Below, piece by piece: positions 1-20,819 of a stretch of 22,885 bases of DNA (position 1 is the first letter of the stretch; each line of letters starts with the position of its first letter). The translations under genes and the position numbers were made by a program. Source of the DNA: a virus. Under the pieces are notes generated by a model. The model was not told the DNA's origin, made no database searches, and saw only the letters and a list, made by a program, of their open reading frames with translations. The DNA lies in IMG/VR virus record IMGVR_UViG_3300033149_004399, positions 1 to 22,885 of that record; one strand, given 5' to 3'.

Positions 1-743
1 CCGGCAGGCACATTAACGCTCATAAAACGGATTCCTATTTCATCCTGAAAATCCATGTTGAGCGTATCATTTAGATAAATAGTGCCTGTGTCATGGTCAA
101 CATAACAATCATCTGTCACCGCGCTCGGATATGCGTGTATTTCTATGGTGTCTGTGTGAGCGATGTAACAGTCGTCGTTCTGCGCCAAGGGCACGGATAT
201 TGCTGTATCTAAAGTTGTGGTTTTTAGATTGTTGATCTTAACACATTCCCCTGACGATGGAGGATTCGCCATCCAGAAGCCGTGTTCGATGGCAAGATCA
301 AAACTGGCATTGGCATATCGTTTATCGCGCACATGCAGAGGGGGAGCAAAAGGATTGCTGTCGTGTTCCCACTTATACCCAAAAATAATAGCATAGGATG
401 TGTTGGATTCCTCCGACCCGCGCCGTTCAATCCACACAGGCTCATTTTGCCACTCTGTGATAGAATATTGTACAGCCTTTTCTAATAATCGTGTGAGCTG
501 TCGCCCTAACTCAATAACGGCATCCGCGCTTTTTCCAGAAATACCGAGTGTAAGTACGTCTACAATATTTCCCCATTTACGCATTTGCATTTGACGACCG
601 TCCGCAAGGTCAGATTCCGCCCAAATGTCCTGCGCGGGCAATCTCTGCGGCGTGTAATCCAATAGATTGATTCCACTGCCACTGCGCGAAAGCAATGTTA
701 CGCTTGTTGTGCCATCAGTAATGGTAAAACGAGGTGTTGTCAT
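1..743 (-). CDS. Putative distal tail / tail-tip protein (C-terminus beyond window)
   Basis: The frame is open from ATG 743-741 to the left edge (247 codons, no stop), so the gene is truncated by the window. Its ATG overlaps the tape measure stop as ATGA, so the two are translationally coupled. The protein starts MTTPRFTITDGTTSVTLLS and looks beta-rich. A motif beginning DDCY, with a nearby His and Asp-Thr, occurs twice 21 residues apart (codons near 174-147 and 111-81). There is no signal peptide or membrane segment. The gene directly after a siphophage tape measure is normally the distal tail (Dit) protein or a tail-tip component, and the N-terminal style fits. That assignment rests mainly on position. 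I see no lytic or receptor-binding motif in the visible part. Confidence 0.7.
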   Translation of the reverse strand, partial: MTTPRFTITDGTTSVTLLSRSGSGINLLDYTPQRLPAQDIWAESDLADGRQMQMRKWGNIVDVLTLGISGKSADAVIELGRQLTRLLEKAVQYSITEWQNEPVWIERRGSEESNTSYAIIFGYKWEHDSNPFAPPLHVRDKRYANASFDLAIEHGFWMANPPSSGECVKINNLKTTTLDTAISVPLAQNDDCYIAHTDTIEIHAYPSAVTDDCYVDHDTGTIYLNDTLNMDFQDEIGIRFMSVNVPA

Positions 744-3700
744 GCTGTATACGATGCCCTTCTTAATTGTTTCGTTATGCTATTTTGCAATAACGCTAAA
801 TCCATATTGTCTCTCACAATATTCCCGCCCATATCCACATTATAAACCGTGCGAGTTTGATGCACAATAGAGGGGGTGTATGCGCTCGTTGGGCGAGGAC
901 GATAGTTTATCAAATCATTAATTGAGGACACCAATTGGGGTGCAGTAACGGTGAGTCCTTGTGTCATGGTTGCCCCCGTTGAAGAGTCGCTGTTCGAGTT
1001 AGGCGATTCCGAAGAGGTGCCACCCAAACCAATAGCATTCCATAGTGCTTGAATAATATTGCCAATGACTTTTCTCGCCCACGTTAATAAGGATACGCCG
1101 GACAAAGAAGCAACTCCCGCTTTGATGCCATCAATAATCTTTCTACCAATACCTTGGGCGTTCTCCCAAACATTACCAAAGCCATCAACGATATTGTCCC
1201 ACACGTCTCCCGCAGTTTGTTTAATTTCCTCGAATTTGTCAGAAATGCCGGTTTTTAAACCCTCGGCTATGAGTGTGCCTTTTTCTTTGGCTTTCTCCCA
1301 AAGCTCTCCTAATCCGTCAGTGATATTAGTCCATATATTGCTGGCGGTTTCTTTAACCGCTTCGAGCTTATTTTTAATACCTTCTATAATTCCTTCTACA
1401 ATAGGTTCGCCAACTTCGGTTTCCATCAAATGTGATGGGGAAAATATCAAGAAAAACAGTGTAAAAGCGTCCAGAATGATCGTCAATATTTTGGCTACTC
1501 TTTCAGGGGTAAAATATTCTGCGAGTTTTTGTTTTATACCCTCCCAGATACCCTCAATTATAGCCCCCCCCAACTCGATCACGACGGGTACTATTATAGG
1601 AATAGATGCCGAAATTCCATCTACCAAGCCGGTTATTATCTTTTCGGTAGTAGTCTTTATAGCCTCTTGTAGCTCTGGGCTATTTGCCACGTCTGTTATG
1701 ATACCTGTCAGTGTTGTGGTAAAATTGGCAGTAAATGTGTCCCAATCGGCACCCTCGGTGATGAGCGTCAATACTTTGCCGCCCAATTCCGCGAGAGCGG
1801 GTTCTAGCTCGCTTAATAAATTTTCCTCATTTTTGATTTTTGGTTTTTGTCCATACTCCCAAGAAAACTCGTACTCGGGTTCAATAGGAATCCCCAACTC
1901 CCATTTTACAGCTCTCACTAATCTATCCCATTCGTCCTTTAAACCCCCAAGTGCTTCTTGTATCTTTCTTCTGGCTTCTCTAAAGGCGGTGTCAATGTTA
2001 AAACTCAAATCTCCTGCACCGCCCATAGCCTCTTTCAGTGCTTTAGCCATGTCTTCCATAGCACTGCCAGCACCTTTAGTCTGTTTGGTGAGTTTAATCA
2101 TCAAATTGACTAAATCGCGTTGTGCATCAACCGTTTCTTGTAGTTTGTTTTTATTCTCTTCGGCTGTTTTGAGTTCCTTCTCGCGTTTAGTAATCAATTC
2201 GCCAGCTTCTCTACGCTGGTCTTGCATTGCTCGAATTTCTTTGAGTTTGGCTTCAAGGGTTGCTTCATCTGCGCCGGAGCGCAATAATTCGTTATATTCG
2301 CGCACTAATTTTTGTACAGCCTCGTCAGATTCCTCATACCATTCAGTCGCCTTGTCTAATGCTTTTTGAGCTTTTTCTACACGCTTAATAGCTTTGGCTA
2401 ACTCAAATTCTTGTTTAATTAATTTACTAAGAGCACTACCGTATTCGCCGCCAATACTCCGAATATAATCCAATAATCCTGTATCCAATTTCCCCGTTTT
2501 TAGTGATTTGGATAGCATACGCGCCACTTCTTGCAGTTTGGTTTGAATGACAGACGAATCCAAGCCTAAGCCCGATAGCGCGCTTTCGATGGGGCTAAGA
2601 ATTTGATTTATGATACTAAAATCGGCTTTTGTCATTCCCTTGAACCATTCTTCAATTGTCTTTGCGCCCCATGTATCAATCATAGGTAGAATTTTGGGCG
2701 GTGACTGAACTTCAAATAATTCTGTAATTGTATTGGAAATAAAATTGACTAATGCAGTGATTGCATTTGCCGCACCCCGCAATAAGCCGAATCCCCACTC
2801 TTCCATCATTTCTCTGCCGTGAATAAATAAATCGGTTCCAAGTTCTATAAGCCATTGCATAAAATCAAGAATCTTTTTTGCTATCTGGTTTACAGACCAG
2901 TCGGTTTCCCCGACTATGGATCGCAGCATGTAAACAAATGTTTTACCAAAATCTTCAAAAATGCCTGTTTTGATTACTTCGCCAAATGCCAGGGCAACGG
3001 TGTGAAGAGTAGGTAGTATATCTGCCAACATCGGGCGCATAAAATCAGACATCATCACCGTTTTCAGTGTTTCAAATCGGTTTTGTAAACCTGCTATGGT
3101 TTTGCTTAATGCCTCCGCCGAACCGCCATAATGGGTAAGTGAAAAAGCAATAAGCGCGTCCGCTAAATCTTGTACGCTGATTGTGCCTTCTTGCATACGC
3201 TGGTTAAATTCATCAACCGTGATTCCCAACTCTTCTCTTAGCACCTGCGCCAAGTCAAGACCAGAGTTTGCCAATTCATATAAATCCCGCTGAAAAATTT
3301 TGCCATTTTTAGCCACTTGTGCAAAGTTGCGAGCTAATAACTCTAAGACCTCGTTAGAGAACCCCGTAGCGGCTCCAATTTCGATGAGGGCTTCTGTTAA
3401 CTCGTATGAGGTATCTAAAGCCACACCATACGCCGCAATTTTGCGGTAAAGCCCGTAAATGTCTTCTAACGGGAATGGTGATACAAGCGATAAATCAATT
3501 AATGCCTTACGGAGTTGTTCGGAAATGGGTATGGCGGCTACCATCGCGTCTCTGGCTGTTTCAAAGCGACCCTCTGTTACTAAAGCCGCTGCCACCACCG
3601 CGTTAAGGGCAGTTTCGATTTTTTGAAATTCTGTTGCTGTTTTATATAAATGCTCTAATTCGGCGCGCATATCCGCGAGAGCTTGCGTTCCTTGTTGGCG

Positions 3701-4438: not shown

Positions 4439-4716
4439 TTTTCCTTTAATCTCTTCCGCGATAGATAATTTTCATAACTCTCGATTTTGGCTGACGCAAG
4501 AGCGTGTCCATACATCACCGCCCCATCCTGATAAGGATGACATAACCCAAAATCAGAGGGAAGCCAGCCTTTATCTAAAACAGCGTCAACCTGTACGAAA
4601 AAGTCACTTGTAATCCAATTGCTACTATATGCGTCAGGAATCGCCAGCCTGTTCAGCGGAATCTGGTCGTTGGGCGGGTTCGCTGTCTTGTTCAGTCTTT
4701 TGATCGCGAAAGGATT
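4435..4716 (-). CDS. Tail assembly chaperone T extension, read by frameshift from G
   Basis: This 93-codon open frame lies in the +1 (equivalently -2) frame of the preceding gene G. It overlaps the last 27 codons of G and continues 66 codons past the G stop to a TGA that overlaps the tape measure ATG. Beyond the G stop it reads as a real protein (PDAYSSNWITSDFFVQVDAV, then WLPSDFGLCHPYQDGAVMYG). It has no credible start: no ATG with a Shine-Dalgarno occurs before the middle of the segment. Position immediately before the tape measure and lack of its own start match the T part of the lambda G/GT chaperone pair, made by programmed frameshifting. Candidate slip sites are UCC-UGA-C at the G stop (4639-4633) and CCC-G at 4678-4675. 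A sequencing indel is the main alternative. Confidence 0.75.
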   Translation of the reverse strand, partial: NPFAIKRLNKTANPPNDQIPLNRLAIPDAYSSNWITSDFFVQVDAVLDKGWLPSDFGLCHPYQDGAVMYGHALASAKIESYENYLSRKRLKEK

Positions 4717-5257
4717 TCATGGCTTGCTTGACCTCCTCGCCGCTAATCACGCCAGCAACCTTCATGGTTTCCGCCAACAAGCGCATCATTTCATCTGTGT
4801 TATCGCATAAAACAACATGCTCTACGTATAAACGCTTTACTCGCGTTTCATACTTTTCTGGATCAGGCAATAAAAGACCAGTATCTATTTTTTGCCTATG
4901 TACATATTGTTTTAAATCCTCTAAGGGAACTATCACACAATTCAGTGCTTCATACATCATGTGCTGCCACACGCGTGTTTCAAGCTCGTCTTGCTCTTGT
5001 TCATATTTAGCCCAAGCCGCCTTTTCCTCATCGGTTTCTAAGGTATCTTTGGTGTGATAGTAAATGATCTCCTCACCACCAAAAGCATCTTCGGCTTTAT
5101 AGGTTGGGCGTTGGGGCAGAGGGCGATGTTCTTCTAATTCCCAAGCGGTTTTTACAGATTCTTCTACGCGCAGCATCATCATGCGCGTAAAACCCGTGAT
5201 GGTATATTTGCGACCATCTAGGGCGATAAATGTTCCTGTTTTCTTTCCATCAATCAT
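4634..5257 (-). CDS. Tail assembly chaperone G-like protein
   Basis: A 207-residue acidic, helical protein (starts MIDGKKTGTFIALDGRKYTI) between the major tail protein and the tape measure. That is the position of the gpG tail assembly chaperone that coats the tape measure before tube polymerisation. I chose the ATG at 5257-5255 because GGGAG lies 6 bases upstream; the frame extends to an ATG at 5308 but that stretch is inside a strong hairpin and has no good ribosome site. The C-terminus is hydrophilic and low in complexity (DSEPAQRPDSAEQAG), as expected for the linker where T is appended. The ribosome site may be controlled by the hairpin at 5261-5335. Identification rests on position, length and the overlapping T frame rather than a clear motif. 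Confidence 0.7.
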   Translation of the reverse strand: MIDGKKTGTFIALDGRKYTITGFTRMMMLRVEESVKTAWELEEHRPLPQRPTYKAEDAFGGEEIIYYHTKDTLETDEEKAAWAKYEQEQDELETRVWQHMMYEALNCVIVPLEDLKQYVHRQKIDTGLLLPDPEKYETRVKRLYVEHVVLCDNTDEMMRLLAETMKVAGVISGEEVKQAMKSFRDQKTEQDSEPAQRPDSAEQAGDS

Positions 5258-9466: not shown

Positions 9467-10564
9467 CTATTCGCTTGTGCCATCCGAATAATAAATGCCA
9501 CGATAATCAACAACACCCACATAGGTGTCATCATCCCAGCCCCCGATGAAATCCTCAACGGTGTATTCAATATCGCCCGTTTCATAGGAACCCATCAGCA
9601 TGGCTGGAGGGGCTGAACCCATAACCATAGCAATGTTGCTTGCTCGCATATACACATATGGCTCTTCATATCCCTGCAATCGAACAACGGGGACTGCGGG
9701 AATCGCGGCGGGGTCTGCAAACAGATACCATGGGTTTGCATCATCGGTAGTAGTAATGTAATCGTTGACAATATATCCGCGTAAGAACTTCGGGATAACA
9801 TTGAGATCATTAGCCGCTGAGCCGCTAGCCTGCGTCGAGCCAAGAATAACCTCGGCTTGCATGGCTAGGGTTGGAGGTACCACCAGATAAATTCCGCCCA
9901 CCGATAACGGATAGCCGTCGGGGTCGGTACGAGTATTCATATAGCTAATAGCTAATGCCAAGTTCTCGTGAGTTAGGCTCCCCGTACCCGCATATTGTGC
10001 CCCAAGAGCAGTCAATGCGGCTTGGGTTGTGGCATTATCAAAGAGAGCAGTAACAAACTGATTTTCAAATTGATAAGCCGCCCGTGCCATTGCACGAGGC
10101 ACTTCTTTGATTTTCCCTAAATCATCTTCGAGAATTGCGCGCCAAGAAATATCAAACTGACGAGCAAACTCTTCCACACCATAAGACACTTGCGAGTCTG
10201 AGATGCTTGTGGCACGAGCTTCGCCCTTTTCCCGTCGCTTATACAATGTGCCTGGTCTGCTTAAGCGCAGCCGGTCAACATCTCTAAATGTGGGAGCAAT
10301 GTCTGGATATGTATACTCTTTCCACGACATGTCGCGAACGCGATAATCGGCATAGAACATACGAGACAAGGCATCGGCAAAATAGTGAGAGAAGTGCGCT
10401 GTGGTAAGCACCTCTTGAAATTTGTCTGGTGTTGTACTGCGCATGGCAGTACTGTACATTTCTTCTAAGGCTTCAACACGTTTATCAAGTTCTTTGCCAG
10501 AAATGCTATTCGCCTTAAAATCTTCGTGCATCAAGCCAGACAAAAGATTAAACAGTGATTTCAT
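9467..10564 (-). CDS. Major capsid protein (HK97 fold)
   Basis: A 365-residue protein with a helical N-terminal segment (about 1-55) followed by a body consistent with an HK97-fold capsid protein: SYGVEEFARQFDISWRAILE near residues 128-147 (spine-helix region), FENQFVTALF near 166-175 and the strand GGIYLVVPPTLAMQAEVIL near 224-242. Acidic loops and a glycine-rich end (GGWDDDTYVGVVDYRG) follow. The length suits a capsid subunit made with a separate scaffold. A protease gene and nested scaffold lie upstream, and AAGGAG precedes the ATG. The sequence reads closer to the Mu gpT-like branch than to classical HK97 gp5, but this is an impression. Confidence 0.85.
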   Translation of the reverse strand: MKSLFNLLSGLMHEDFKANSISGKELDKRVEALEEMYSTAMRSTTPDKFQEVLTTAHFSHYFADALSRMFYADYRVRDMSWKEYTYPDIAPTFRDVDRLRLSRPGTLYKRREKGEARATSISDSQVSYGVEEFARQFDISWRAILEDDLGKIKEVPRAMARAAYQFENQFVTALFDNATTQAALTALGAQYAGTGSLTHENLALAISYMNTRTDPDGYPLSVGGIYLVVPPTLAMQAEVILGSTQASGSAANDLNVIPKFLRGYIVNDYITTTDDANPWYLFADPAAIPAVPVVRLQGYEEPYVYMRASNIAMVMGSAPPAMLMGSYETGDIEYTVEDFIGGWDDDTYVGVVDYRGIYYSDGTSE

Positions 10565-11097: not shown

Positions 11098-11514
11098 TTA
11101 CTCCTTTTTCTTTTTAATTTGCATAAACTCTGCAATCATTTGGTCTTTAGCTTTCTCAGCTTCTGCGAGTTTATCTGCATTACTTAATTTGTCCACCGCG
11201 CTTTTATCCATACCAAAAACTTTGCCTGATTGGGTAACATTTTTGATATATTCAAGTTCAGCATTGGCGGCTTCTTGTACTTCTTCTTTTGATATAAATT
11301 TTCCAGAATAGGCAAGGCGGGTTTGCGCATATTTTGGCAGCGCGGTCTCTGCTAAAATTTCTTTGATTTGTACAACACCCAAAAATTGTGGCTCAGGATC
11401 GCCTTCCTCAATATGCACTTCTTCGACTTGCTCTACTTGTGTCTCTGACTGCGGTTCCTGTTCCGGCTCTTCGTGGGTTTCCAATTCTTGCTTCTCATTA
11501 ATTTCTTTTGTCAT
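11098..11514 (-). CDS. Nested in-frame scaffold protein
   Basis: An internal ATG (11514-11512, residue 336 of the protease) is preceded by a perfect AAGGAG (11526-11521) at 6-base spacing. It would produce a 138-residue protein sharing the stop of the protease gene. The product is strongly acidic at first (EEPEQEPQSETQVEQVEEV), then helical with a lysine-rich end (IAEFMQIKKKKE), which is the usual make-up of a capsid scaffold. Upstream of it the protease domain ends at a serine/asparagine-rich linker. This is the lambda C/Nu3 arrangement. The ribosome site is directly visible; the separate product and its role are inferred. Confidence 0.75.
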   Translation of the reverse strand: MTKEINEKQELETHEEPEQEPQSETQVEQVEEVHIEEGDPEPQFLGVVQIKEILAETALPKYAQTRLAYSGKFISKEEVQEAANAELEYIKNVTQSGKVFGMDKSAVDKLSNADKLAEAEKAKDQMIAEFMQIKKKKE

Positions 11515-12519
11515 ATTTGACTCCTTATTTGTATTCTCAGATTCAACCAAACTCACGGCAGCCCCACCAGCACCAGCGCGCGTTACCCAGTCTACGCTGG
11601 AAACATTAGTAATGGATTCGACCTGCTTGCCTCTGCGCCCGCCGAGTTCAAATCCCTTTTTGGCTGTACCGGAGGCATAAATCGAGCATTCCATCTTTTC
11701 AAGCATTCCTAATTCATTAAGATTGCGCAATCGGTTAGCAAAGCCAGCATCGTGAATGGCAACCCTTGCAAGCGGAGCGCCCTGCGAATCAAAGCCGGCT
11801 ATATCTTCAATGGTCGCTGTCCAGGTGCGGGTTGATTTTTCATTTGGTCGGTGATCTGTTTCATACATTTTCGCACCAATAAATAAATGGGCGTCTCGTT
11901 TTAATACCTCTTTGGGATAATAATGATTGTGTGCTTTATTGCCCCAGCCAGGACGTATTAGCCGAACAATTGCATGGAGGGGGCCACCATTTTTGGTTTC
12001 AGTAAGTTCGGTAATTGGGGAAGGCTCACTTTCTGCTAATTCCACTTTGCTTTCCTCTATTTCCGCCATTTTTTTACGTTGTTCGGCTTCCATTAAAGCT
12101 CCTAATCTGACAGTAAACTCATTAGCTAAACGATTGATGGCAGCAATTTTGTCTTCAATTTCCACAGAATACATGATGTTATCTATCATGGCTTGAAAGG
12201 CGTTAGTCAGGGTCTGAATTTCAAAGATTCGATGCTCTTCTTTTTCCTTCGCCTCCAATTGTTCAAAGGAAACGATGTAACCGTTATCCAATTCTGCTAA
12301 TTTTAGTTTCTCCTCTGGTTCGACCTCCTTGACCCATTTGTCGTTCTTCTTTTTATATCCGGCGTTTTTTACCGCTCCCCAGGCAATCTTGAAAGCCCGT
12401 TCCTCGTCATGGTATTTTGCGTTAGCAGCGTTAAAAGCCTTTCTAAAAATCTCCTGTGCCTTTGCTGGCAAGACGTTTTTTACACTATCTGGTAATTCTG
12501 AATTTTTGGCATAAGGCAT
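11098..12519 (-). CDS. ChaB-domain prohead protease with fused scaffold region
   Basis: A 473-residue protein with three parts. Residues about 8-55 match the ChaB domain (LPDSVKNVLPAKAQEIFRKA, then FKIAWGAVK). A charged linker helix spans about 65-165. Residues about 180-323 look like a prohead serine protease: KAHNHYYPKEVL, TDH with candidate catalytic His223, MECSIYASG with candidate Ser279, and the block VDWVTRAGAGG typical of phage maturation proteases. Residues 336-473 are acidic then helical and are also made separately as scaffold. The ATG (12519) has AGGAG 6 bases upstream. An intrinsic terminator lies directly before this ribosome site. ChaB fused to phage proteases is known, but its role there is unclear. 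Confidence 0.8.
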   Translation of the reverse strand: MPYAKNSELPDSVKNVLPAKAQEIFRKAFNAANAKYHDEERAFKIAWGAVKNAGYKKKNDKWVKEVEPEEKLKLAELDNGYIVSFEQLEAKEKEEHRIFEIQTLTNAFQAMIDNIMYSVEIEDKIAAINRLANEFTVRLGALMEAEQRKKMAEIEESKVELAESEPSPITELTETKNGGPLHAIVRLIRPGWGNKAHNHYYPKEVLKRDAHLFIGAKMYETDHRPNEKSTRTWTATIEDIAGFDSQGAPLARVAIHDAGFANRLRNLNELGMLEKMECSIYASGTAKKGFELGGRRGKQVESITNVSSVDWVTRAGAGGAAVSLVESENTNKESNMTKEINEKQELETHEEPEQEPQSETQVEQVEEVHIEEGDPEPQFLGVVQIKEILAETALPKYAQTRLAYSGKFISKEEVQEAANAELEYIKNVTQSGKVFGMDKSAVDKLSNADKLAEAEKAKDQMIAEFMQIKKKKE

Positions 12520-12530
12520 ATATTTCTCCT

Positions 12531-12559
12531 AAATAAAAAGCCCGCTCCGGCGAGCGGGC
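12531..12559 (-). terminator. Intrinsic terminator in the leader of the protease/capsid operon
   Basis: On the leftward strand an 8-bp GC stem (GCCCGCTC pairing with GAGCGGGC, loop GCCG) is followed by TTTTTATTT. The T-tract runs directly into AGGAG (12530-12526), the ribosome site of the protease gene. It ends transcripts of the upstream terminase operon but also lies downstream of the promoter at 12619-12647, so it should interrupt that transcript too. Confidence 0.85.
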
Positions 12560-12612
12560 AATGACGGCTCATGTATATTAAAGCGGTTGAAAACAGCCCC
12601 ATATACAGATTA
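12560..12612 (-). promoter_or_regulatory. Leader between late promoter and terminator, with possible alternative fold
   Basis: The presumed transcript starts near 12612. The leader contains TGTATAT (12607-12601 as read leftward) that can pair with ATATACA (12578-12572), enclosing GGGGCTGTTTTCAACC. GGCT in that loop could instead pair with AGCC at about 12569-12566. No ORF is evident in it. With the terminator it makes an attenuator-like 5' region; the switching mechanism is an inference. Confidence 0.4.
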
Positions 12613-12618
12613 TAGCAT

Positions 12619-12647
12619 ATTGTAGCACAAATGTTCTAATTTGTCAA
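12619..12647 (-). promoter_or_regulatory. Sigma70 promoter of the protease/capsid operon
   Basis: Leftward TTGACA (12647-12642), a 17-base spacer and TACAAT (12624-12619): a near-consensus promoter. The spacer is almost filled by the operator-like repeat at 12623-12639. It lies in the intergenic region after the 51-aa gene and about 100 bases before the protease ATG. A second TATAAT at 12614-12609 lacks a good -35. Confidence 0.85.
12623..12639. promoter_or_regulatory. Operator-like repeat, copy 1
   Basis: TAGCACAAATGTTCTAA on the plus strand, identical to 20795-20811. It is an imperfect dyad (TAGCACA / TGTTCTA, 6 of 7 positions symmetrical, 2-base centre) and contains GCAC-N4-GTTC, one base from the GAAC-N4-GTTC LexA box of Bacillus-type bacteria. 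It lies between -35 and -10, where a bound repressor would block RNA polymerase. Confidence 0.75.
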
Positions 12648-17937: not shown

Positions 17938-18596
17938 TTTCTAATATCTAATACATCTAAAATGTGTTCTCCGTCCGCCAAGCGTGAAATTTGGTCGGGG
18001 GCTAATTTGTCAAAATCAATTTCCTCTATAAGACGATCCATACTTCTGTCTTCCATTTCCGCCGCTCTGCGGCTAATGTCAGAAGCCAGTTTGATAATCC
18101 GTAAGGCGGCTGAGACATTCAGTTTTACGGTGCGAAGCATAATGGTTGGTTTGCCCTTCTGTACCACAATACCGTCCGATGTGATAACTTGTGGGCTGCC
18201 TTCTTCAGCAATAGCCTCCTTACTAGTTAAAAAACTCGGCATTTGGTCTAAGAGATTTGAAACCATTGTTTGCAGTCGCGTGGCATTTTCCCATTCACGC
18301 TCCCGAACCTCATCCCGCCGCTCCCGCCAACGATGCGCCTCGCGCTTCCGCTCCATTTCTTCCCAACATGAAATCCTTTGCTGCCAATCTAACCGTTTTG
18401 ACCAGTCAGCCAATGTCATATAAGAGGTGGTGGGCGGGTCATCTGCGTCAAGATATTGATTGTGAAGACGCTTTAGGCTTCGACTATGCCCCATGTGAGC
18501 ATAATCCCGTAATGCTCTGTTCGCGGCTGAGGATTCGCCGCTTTCTACGGGCTGCAAAGGGTCTAAACTGTTCCAGCACACCATTTCATTACTCAT
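17934..18596 (-). CDS. Terminase small subunit
   Basis: A 220-residue protein directly upstream of and overlapping the large terminase. Its N-terminal part has repeat-like helical segments in the style of phage small terminases (ALRDYAHMGHSRSLKRLHNQ, then TLADWSKRLDWQQRISCWEE, where the W-x-x-R and W-E-E pattern recurs). A basic helical middle (REAHRWRERRDEVREREWEN) and a C-terminal acidic segment follow. This protein recognises the packaging site and hands DNA to the large subunit. The ATG overlaps the ParB-like stop as ATGA. Confidence 0.75.
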   Translation of the reverse strand: MSNEMVCWNSLDPLQPVESGESSAANRALRDYAHMGHSRSLKRLHNQYLDADDPPTTSYMTLADWSKRLDWQQRISCWEEMERKREAHRWRERRDEVREREWENATRLQTMVSNLLDQMPSFLTSKEAIAEEGSPQVITSDGIVVQKGKPTIMLRTVKLNVSAALRIIKLASDISRRAAEMEDRSMDRLIEEIDFDKLAPDQISRLADGEHILDVLDIRK

Positions 18597-19237
18597 GGCA
18601 ATTCATCTTCCAACAAATTTAATAATAATTCCACAAACTCATCATCGGTTTTAATGTGTTCTATCCGGCTTTTCATATTATGCCATTTATCATATATTTC
18701 AGCGGTGACGTGCAGTCGCAACCAACGCCAATGACTTTTTTCTTCTCGATATAATGCCAATGCCTCATCGGACACAAGTTGACTGCGCTCGCGCGGCATG
18801 GTTTGTTTGAGCAAACGATCTACCGCCAATCCATCGAATCCTGTGCCATCTAACCGCTTTTGGGCGGCTAAATCTGCCAAAATCTGAGCAGTTTTAATGT
18901 CATCCCATTCGTTTTCTCCAATGCGATTAAGCGCGATTGCTAAGGCTTCCTCTTCATCGGCGGGTATATTAATTCTGTCTGTTGGCACATACCAGTCATC
19001 TGGTCGTACTTCAATATTGTCAGGCGGCTCGGTTCCCGCCGCCTTTTTTTGCATGAGCGCATCGGCACGCCCTTCGCCAGCGATAATGTGCCCTGTGGTA
19101 TCATTGATAATAATACGATTTACAAAACCAAAACGATTAATAGATTGATGAATGTCACCCAAATTGTGTAATTTGGGATTTCTCGGCAACCGTACTAATG
19201 TAGACAACGGCTCAAATTGTGCTTTCATGTTTTTCAA
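18593..19237 (-). CDS. ParB-like N-terminal domain protein
   Basis: About 214 residues. Residues about 10-60 carry the ParB/Spo0J/Noc N-terminal pattern: LVRLPRNPKLHN, SINRFGFVNRIIIND, then GHIIAGEGRADALM, which corresponds to the conserved G-x-x-I-x-x-G-x-x-R-x-x-A box (a CTPase or nuclease fold). IPADEEEALAIALNRIGENE is the usual follow-on seen in phage ParB-like proteins. No helix-turn-helix DNA-binding domain is obvious in the C-terminus. The start may be TTG 19237 or ATG 19228; AAGGA is nearer to the TTG. It directly precedes and overlaps the small terminase, which suggests a role in DNA recognition or packaging rather than partition. Confidence 0.75.
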   Translation of the reverse strand: MKNMKAQFEPLSTLVRLPRNPKLHNLGDIHQSINRFGFVNRIIINDTTGHIIAGEGRADALMQKKAAGTEPPDNIEVRPDDWYVPTDRINIPADEEEALAIALNRIGENEWDDIKTAQILADLAAQKRLDGTGFDGLAVDRLLKQTMPRERSQLVSDEALALYREEKSHWRWLRLHVTAEIYDKWHNMKSRIEHIKTDDEFVELLLNLLEDELP

Positions 19238-20790: not shown

Positions 20791-20819
20791 ATTATAGCAC
20801 AAATGTTCTAAAATGTAAA
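20791..20819 (-). promoter_or_regulatory. Sigma70 promoter of the leftward late operon
   Basis: Leftward TTTACA (20819-20814), a 17-base spacer and consensus TATAAT (20796-20791). The spacer holds the operator-like repeat, as in the promoter at 12619-12647. The predicted start lies about 13 bases before the first ATG (20771), leaving a very short leader with AGGAGAG. Confidence 0.85.
20795..20811. promoter_or_regulatory. Operator-like repeat, copy 2
   Basis: TAGCACAAATGTTCTAA, the same 17 bases as at 12623-12639. As in copy 1, it occupies the spacer and its outer edge reaches the -10 element. It lies about 60 bases upstream of the divergent rightward -35, so it need not control that promoter. 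Confidence 0.75.

Follow-up and report, generated by a model that had tools for sequence, protein, structure and literature searches.

A promoter-like sequence, a short leader and a terminator-like hairpin stand in this order immediately before the capsid operon of the phage analysed here. The order is conserved in relatives, the leader carries compensatory changes, and an operator-like palindrome within the promoter recurs in a second copy elsewhere. With moderate confidence, we interpret the arrangement as a late promoter subject to attenuation, with the terminator acting as a gate to the capsid operon. Capsid production would then probably be held back until something lets RNA polymerase pass. 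This reading, drawn from sequence comparison, presumes that the predicted promoter and terminator are active and that a factor would regulate the read-through and a repressor the initiation.

A predicted late promoter and terminator ahead of the capsid operon

The window, that is, the whole stretch of DNA that was analysed, is a virus record of 22,885 bases. Its late genes lie on the minus strand in the order terminase, portal, a few small genes, ChaB/protease, major capsid protein, and tail genes including that of the tape measure. A ParB-like protein gene (18593-19237, minus strand) lies immediately ahead of the small terminase gene. The ChaB/protease gene matches PF06150 ChaB (6.8e-17) and phrog_29592 (3.6e-10), a family whose profile spans the capsid protein too, and the capsid gene matches Phage_capsid_4 (4.5e-28) and Mu-like gpT (4.7e-08). 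No DNA match was found among annotated phages, whose capsids are merely ~26% identical. The promoter-leader-terminator unit comes after the last upstream gene and ahead of the ChaB/protease gene. All the elements named in a preliminary description, namely the late promoter, the leader, the 8-bp GC hairpin, AGGAG and the protease ATG, were located in place on the minus strand (Table 1).

Table 1. Positions of the predicted elements in the window and in three distantly related loci
Locus	Feature	Position	Strand	Remarks
Window	Major capsid protein gene	9467..10564	-	Downstream in the same operon
Window	Gene with ChaB domain and protease-like region	11098..12519	-	Opens the capsid operon; ATG 12519
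Window	AGGAG ribosome binding site	12526..12530	-	Abuts the U-tract; same position in L004 and L005
Window	Terminator U-tract TTTTTATTT	12531..12539	-	Kept in L003, slightly altered in L005, degenerate in L004
Window	Putative intrinsic terminator stem GCCCGCTC-GCCG-GAGCGGGC	12540..12559	-	Perfect 8 bp, 7 GC, -17.1 kcal/mol
Window	Leader motif UGAGCYGUC	12563..12571	-	Invariant in 4/4 save one C/U
Window	Leader hairpin I GGC-u-GUU-uuc-AAC-c-GCU	12582..12598	-	Predicted in 4/4 leaders
Window	-10-like TATAAT	12609..12614	-	4 nt past the -10; might act as a sigma-dependent pause or as a second start
Window	Putative late promoter TTGACA-17-TACAAT, extended -10 (TGC)	12619..12647	-	11/12 consensus matches
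Window	Spacer palindrome TAGAACATTTGTGCTA, 16 bp, LexA/SOS-box-like putative operator	12623..12638	-	Between -35 and -10
Window	Second putative promoter TTTACA-17-TATAAT	20791..20819	-	Identical 16-bp putative operator; no terminator; would drive the first late gene (ATG 20771)
L014	Terminator	4701-4728		ATG 4751
L030	Terminator	4506-4540		ATG 4567
L029	Two terminators			At operon start

The two hexamers of the late promoter, TTGACA (12647-12642) and TACAAT (12624-12619), are separated by a 17-bp spacer. Its score of 15.1 with a sigma70 weight matrix is the joint top of the coding strand together with that of the second promoter (15.0), and the next candidate scores 11.8. In the window and in each of three close relatives, the promoter ahead of the leader scores best on the coding strand. 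In the same scan of the four contigs, nothing of similar promoter strength lay between terminator and capsid gene, and the capsid message should therefore need to cross the terminator. The -10-like TATAAT, which is perfect in the window, is weak in the relatives (3-4 of 6 positions).

The GC-rich hairpin and following U-tract at 12559-12531 have the form of an intrinsic terminator. The stem was the sole strong terminator found on the coding strand of the window, and the scan detected none between the upstream genes and the late promoter. Fifteen of 16 stem positions are identical across the window and the three close relatives (GCCCGCUC/GAGCGGG(C/U)). The near-invariant stem thus gives no covariation signal, yet it suggests a constraint on the stem sequence that exceeds the needs of a plain terminator. 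Termination in L004 may be weak, its U-tract being degenerate. The distance from the stem end to the ATG is 20-21 nt in 3/4 of these phages and 22-27 nt in distant ones; L003 has a 15-nt insertion between the hairpin and the ribosome site, plus a second site.

The close relatives, all from IMG/VR, are L003 (=L010), L004 (=L013) and L005 (=L020), with capsids 83-84% and ChaB/protease proteins 62-65% identical to those of the window. The order of promoter with 17-bp spacer, leader, terminator and ribosome site is kept in all three, and exact leader patterns detected no further relatives in IMG/VR. In 1.53 million strand-bases of viral DNA, which are not a random sample as many loci were chosen by capsid relation or operator pattern, six promoter-then-terminator pairs were seen within 110 nt against 0.28 expected from the densities of similarly strong promoters (56) and of strong terminators (75). 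The six comprise the window, the three close relatives and one further locus present twice.

About 13 further loci were compared, with capsids 30-62% or proteases 36-49% identical. In three of them (L014, L030 and L029), the same operon is headed by a terminator; the best-scoring promoter on that entire strand of the locus is found 41, 148 and 110 nt ahead of it, respectively. The scan used found no terminator at the operon start in the remaining ~10. The leaders of these three loci are unrelated to that of the window, while the order of top promoter, leader, terminator and capsid-operon start is the same. L029 and L030 have in common a long structured leader, unlike that of the window and with no Rfam match. 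In L029 (4371-4623) and L030 (4325-4567), the promoter TTGACGTAATSATTTCGGCCGTTGTA is followed by this structured RNA (GACTAGCGACG ... ACGCCGAAAAGAGCGCGGATA ... GTCGCGGGGC), the terminator(s) and the ChaB/protease start codon; an 18-base pattern revealed no third contig with this RNA in IMG/VR. As judged from these loci, promoter, leader and terminator either have retained their order or have come to it anew with different RNAs. The earlier proposal that the terminator goes with this promoter, and does not solely end the previous operon, is well supported by the order in the window, its three close relatives and these three distant loci.

Two other relatives are of note. L018, a distant capsid relative, has an Rfam match to int-alpA RNA at 2471-2536 (plus strand). 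L023 (PWMI01000043.1), whose capsid gene is 81% identical and whose protease gene is without a ChaB domain, is binned in a Diapherotrites (archaeal) MAG and was the sole result of a genome search for the host; its contig starts past the leader region. Since the phages have bacterial promoters and the MAG shows none by the pattern used, L023 is likely misbinned.

Predicted structure and conservation of the leader RNA

The transcribed leader is estimated at ~53 nt from start to stem. The four leaders have mostly diverged, and they have in common hairpin I, a linker of 8-10 nt, UGAGCYGUC, three variable bases and the stem. Hairpin I consists of GGC/GCY outside, a U-C mismatch (in L005, two on each side) and the inner pairs GUU/AAC, ACC/GGU, GC/GC or CGC/GCG. 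Every inner sequence differs among the four leaders, and 11 of the 12 inner pairs are canonical through compensatory changes (permutation p ~1e-5, a guide only, with four sequences and boundaries set by eye).

GAGC of the motif (12570-12567) is able to pair with GCTC in the 5' arm of the terminator (12555-12552) in all four leaders, far more weakly than the terminator itself. When the leaders were folded with only the 5' arm made, GAGC:GCUC was the dominant pairing in 4/4; its probability reached 0.67 in L004 and was 0.91-1.0 in the other three. Any fold keeping GAGC:GCUC is 8-17 kcal/mol weaker than the full terminator fold. Thus, the RNA alone should always terminate, and read-through could be regulated only with the help of a factor or a coupling event. 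No antiterminator fold competitive with the terminator was found in the four leaders, which speaks against an RNA-only attenuator or riboswitch.

The alternative leader pairings proposed in the preliminary description held in part. The window contains both TGTATAT/ATATACA (arms 12601-12607 and 12572-12578) and GGCT/AGCC, and the latter can form in all four leaders, but the former is not kept in the close relatives and was rejected as a switch. When the leaders were folded, GGCT/AGCC was less stable than hairpin I plus the terminator, and about equal in L005. The leader reached no Rfam gathering threshold, permissive search included; the best permissive match, JA04 (E 0.012, 28.9 bits against a gathering threshold of 81), was driven by the terminator. 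A leader peptide in the frame NTG AGC YGT CAT was rejected: in L005 the loop contains a stop, and there is no ribosome site ahead of the frame; moreover, third positions are conserved as much as the others. GAGCYGTC occurs once elsewhere in the window (495-502), antisense to a tail gene whose message carries the motif complement, probably by chance, and the complement of UGAGCYGUC is absent from the messages of the relatives.

The spacer palindrome and comparison with known systems

The palindrome in the promoter spacer, which the preliminary description overlooked together with its second copy, reads GAAC-ATTT-GTGC, with one mismatch to GAAC-N4-GTTC, the consensus type of the LexA/SOS box, and its GTGC half also yields the extended -10. 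The window contains two exact copies of TAGAACATTTGTGCTA (12638-12623 and 20810-20795), inside its two best promoters, of which the second is divergent from the plus-strand early genes. An exact copy is present in L003/L010 and absent from L004 and L005. A scan with AGAACANNTGTGCTANAAT matched 55 IMG/VR contigs; among the 57 sites listed, the window's two sites and duplicates included, 12 had at least five of the six bases of TTGACA at 17 bp, against ~0.3 in random sequence. SOS-box-like promoters of the form AGAACANNTGTGCTATAAT lie 35 and 47 nt ahead of two classic SOS genes in L065 (1348-1989) and L054 (7774-9345), those of LexA and of a Y-family polymerase. The palindrome therefore counts as SOS-box-like, and its binder may be host LexA or a phage repressor.

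Downstream of the operator promoter, L036, L041, L044, L046 and L061 share a conserved RNA (GGCACGGGCAATGCGGAG ... CTCCGCTCACCYGTGCCA) and a run rich in T; the genes that come next are similar to terminase genes in size and order. In L064 (520-625), a perfect hairpin (ACCGGCGTG/CACGCCGGT) stands ~7 bases past the operator promoter, and a T-rich tail, a ribosome site and a small gene come next.

In lambdoid phages, the late promoter pR' is followed by the intrinsic terminator tR' ahead of the morphogenesis genes, with Q as the antiterminator (PMC6606751). The window resembles this system in its late promoter, the prompt intrinsic terminator and an element between -35 and -10; it alone, and not its relatives, also has a perfect -10-like sequence right past the -10. 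It differs in having a short leader that is conserved at the RNA level and runs right up to the first ribosome site, and in that no Q-family gene was found among the window ORFs scanned, the early region lying beyond the contig end. The spacer palindrome was rejected as a Q-like site, since it is missing in L004 and L005, where the terminator is kept, and is present at the second promoter, where there is no terminator; it is operator-like. The AlpA-controlled alpB promoter of Pseudomonas aeruginosa has a binding element in the spacer, an intrinsic terminator just downstream and a link to DNA damage (PMC9371919). The window would be similar in all three respects, whereas no AlpA-like gene was seen in it and its SOS-box-like site lies within the promoter itself. 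The put RNA of HK022 is likewise a structured nascent leader near a phage promoter, but it has two long stems in ~70 nt and acts on terminators far away (PMC9378689), whereas the window has one short hairpin and a linear motif directly ahead of one terminator. Finally, the palindrome resembles a LexA/SOS box in sequence, and sites of its kind lie ahead of genes for LexA and a Y-family polymerase, whereas its half-site is GTGC instead of GTTC and the putative operator would control structural genes.

The literature on capsid-operon promoter-terminator gates of this kind yielded only the Q, AlpA and put systems. By analogy, the gate would work like lambda pR'-tR' and the alpB promoter. We claim no membership in either group: the spacer element is not tied to the terminator, relatives do not conserve the -10-like sequence, and neither a Q nor an AlpA gene was found in the part of the genome analysed.

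Proposed control of capsid expression

RNA polymerase would initiate at ~12612 from the strong host-sigma promoter, make the leader and the hairpin, and mostly halt near 12531, freeing an RNA of ~80 nt; only read-through polymerases would transcribe the capsid operon. The read-through fraction would most likely climb late in infection through an antitermination event on the nascent leader, with hairpin I, UGAGCYGUC and the near-invariant terminator arm as recognition or switching elements. At minimum, the terminator would fix a low ratio of capsid message to initiation. Initiation would probably be controlled by a LexA-like repressor at the palindrome, in common with the first late promoter.

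This gate is suggested by the order kept in 4/4 phages despite the divergence of the next protein, by the covariation of hairpin I, the constant linker and motif and the near-invariant stem, and by the dominance of GAGC:GCUC while the 3' arm is unmade. The same order in three distant loci and a co-occurrence far above the density expectation point in the same direction. Several observations argue against it: the terminator fold is far stronger than the antiterminator fold, the L004 U-tract is degenerate, the leader is represented by four sequences, ~10 distant relatives have no terminator there, and the window ORFs scanned include no antiterminator gene of a known family.

It is unlikely, in our estimate, that the terminator is a leaky and unregulated volume control and insulator, which would end upstream transcripts and trim the promoter to a constant level. 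Its being the only strong terminator of the coding strand, with none before the promoter, and the tolerated decay of the U-tract in L004 fit such a role, but in all seven phages having a terminator it comes after the promoter and never before, and hairpin I, UGAGCYGUC and the stem are conserved beyond what a plain terminator needs.

The preliminary description considered a small-RNA product. One reading of this kind, an abundant phage RNA of ~80 nt that would pair in trans through UGAGCYGUC while upstream read-through feeds the capsid operon, seems distinctly unlikely. Promoter, structured conserved RNA and terminator do form a self-contained unit, and there is a below-threshold similarity, near chance level, to bacterial small RNAs of the same terminator style. 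However, a free-standing RNA gene needs no such constant spacing between stem and ATG as is seen in close and distant relatives, the promoter, the strongest on its strand, always heads the capsid operon, and complements of the motif are absent from the relatives' messages, the one in the window's tail gene fitting chance. It is very improbable that the hairpin is a 5'-end element of the capsid message that keeps the ribosome site open, protects the end and terminates poorly in the real host, since, even though it adjoins the ribosome site in 3/4 close relatives and the L004 U-tract is poor, the U-tracts in the window, in L003 and in L005 are of the kind that good intrinsic terminators have, and L003 has 15 more bases before the ribosome site.

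For the terminator gate, a more specific form is tentative and, in our view, doubtful: hairpin I and UGAGCYGUC would constitute a new antitermination element that recruits a phage or host factor, giving a timed control of capsid synthesis that responds to DNA damage, and phages with Mu-gpT-like capsids would have been gated repeatedly by unrelated leader RNAs. If the gate is real, capsid output in these uncultured phages would be set after initiation by a compact RNA. The same order with unrelated leaders would make promoter-proximal termination a recurrent solution to late-gene timing outside the lambda group.
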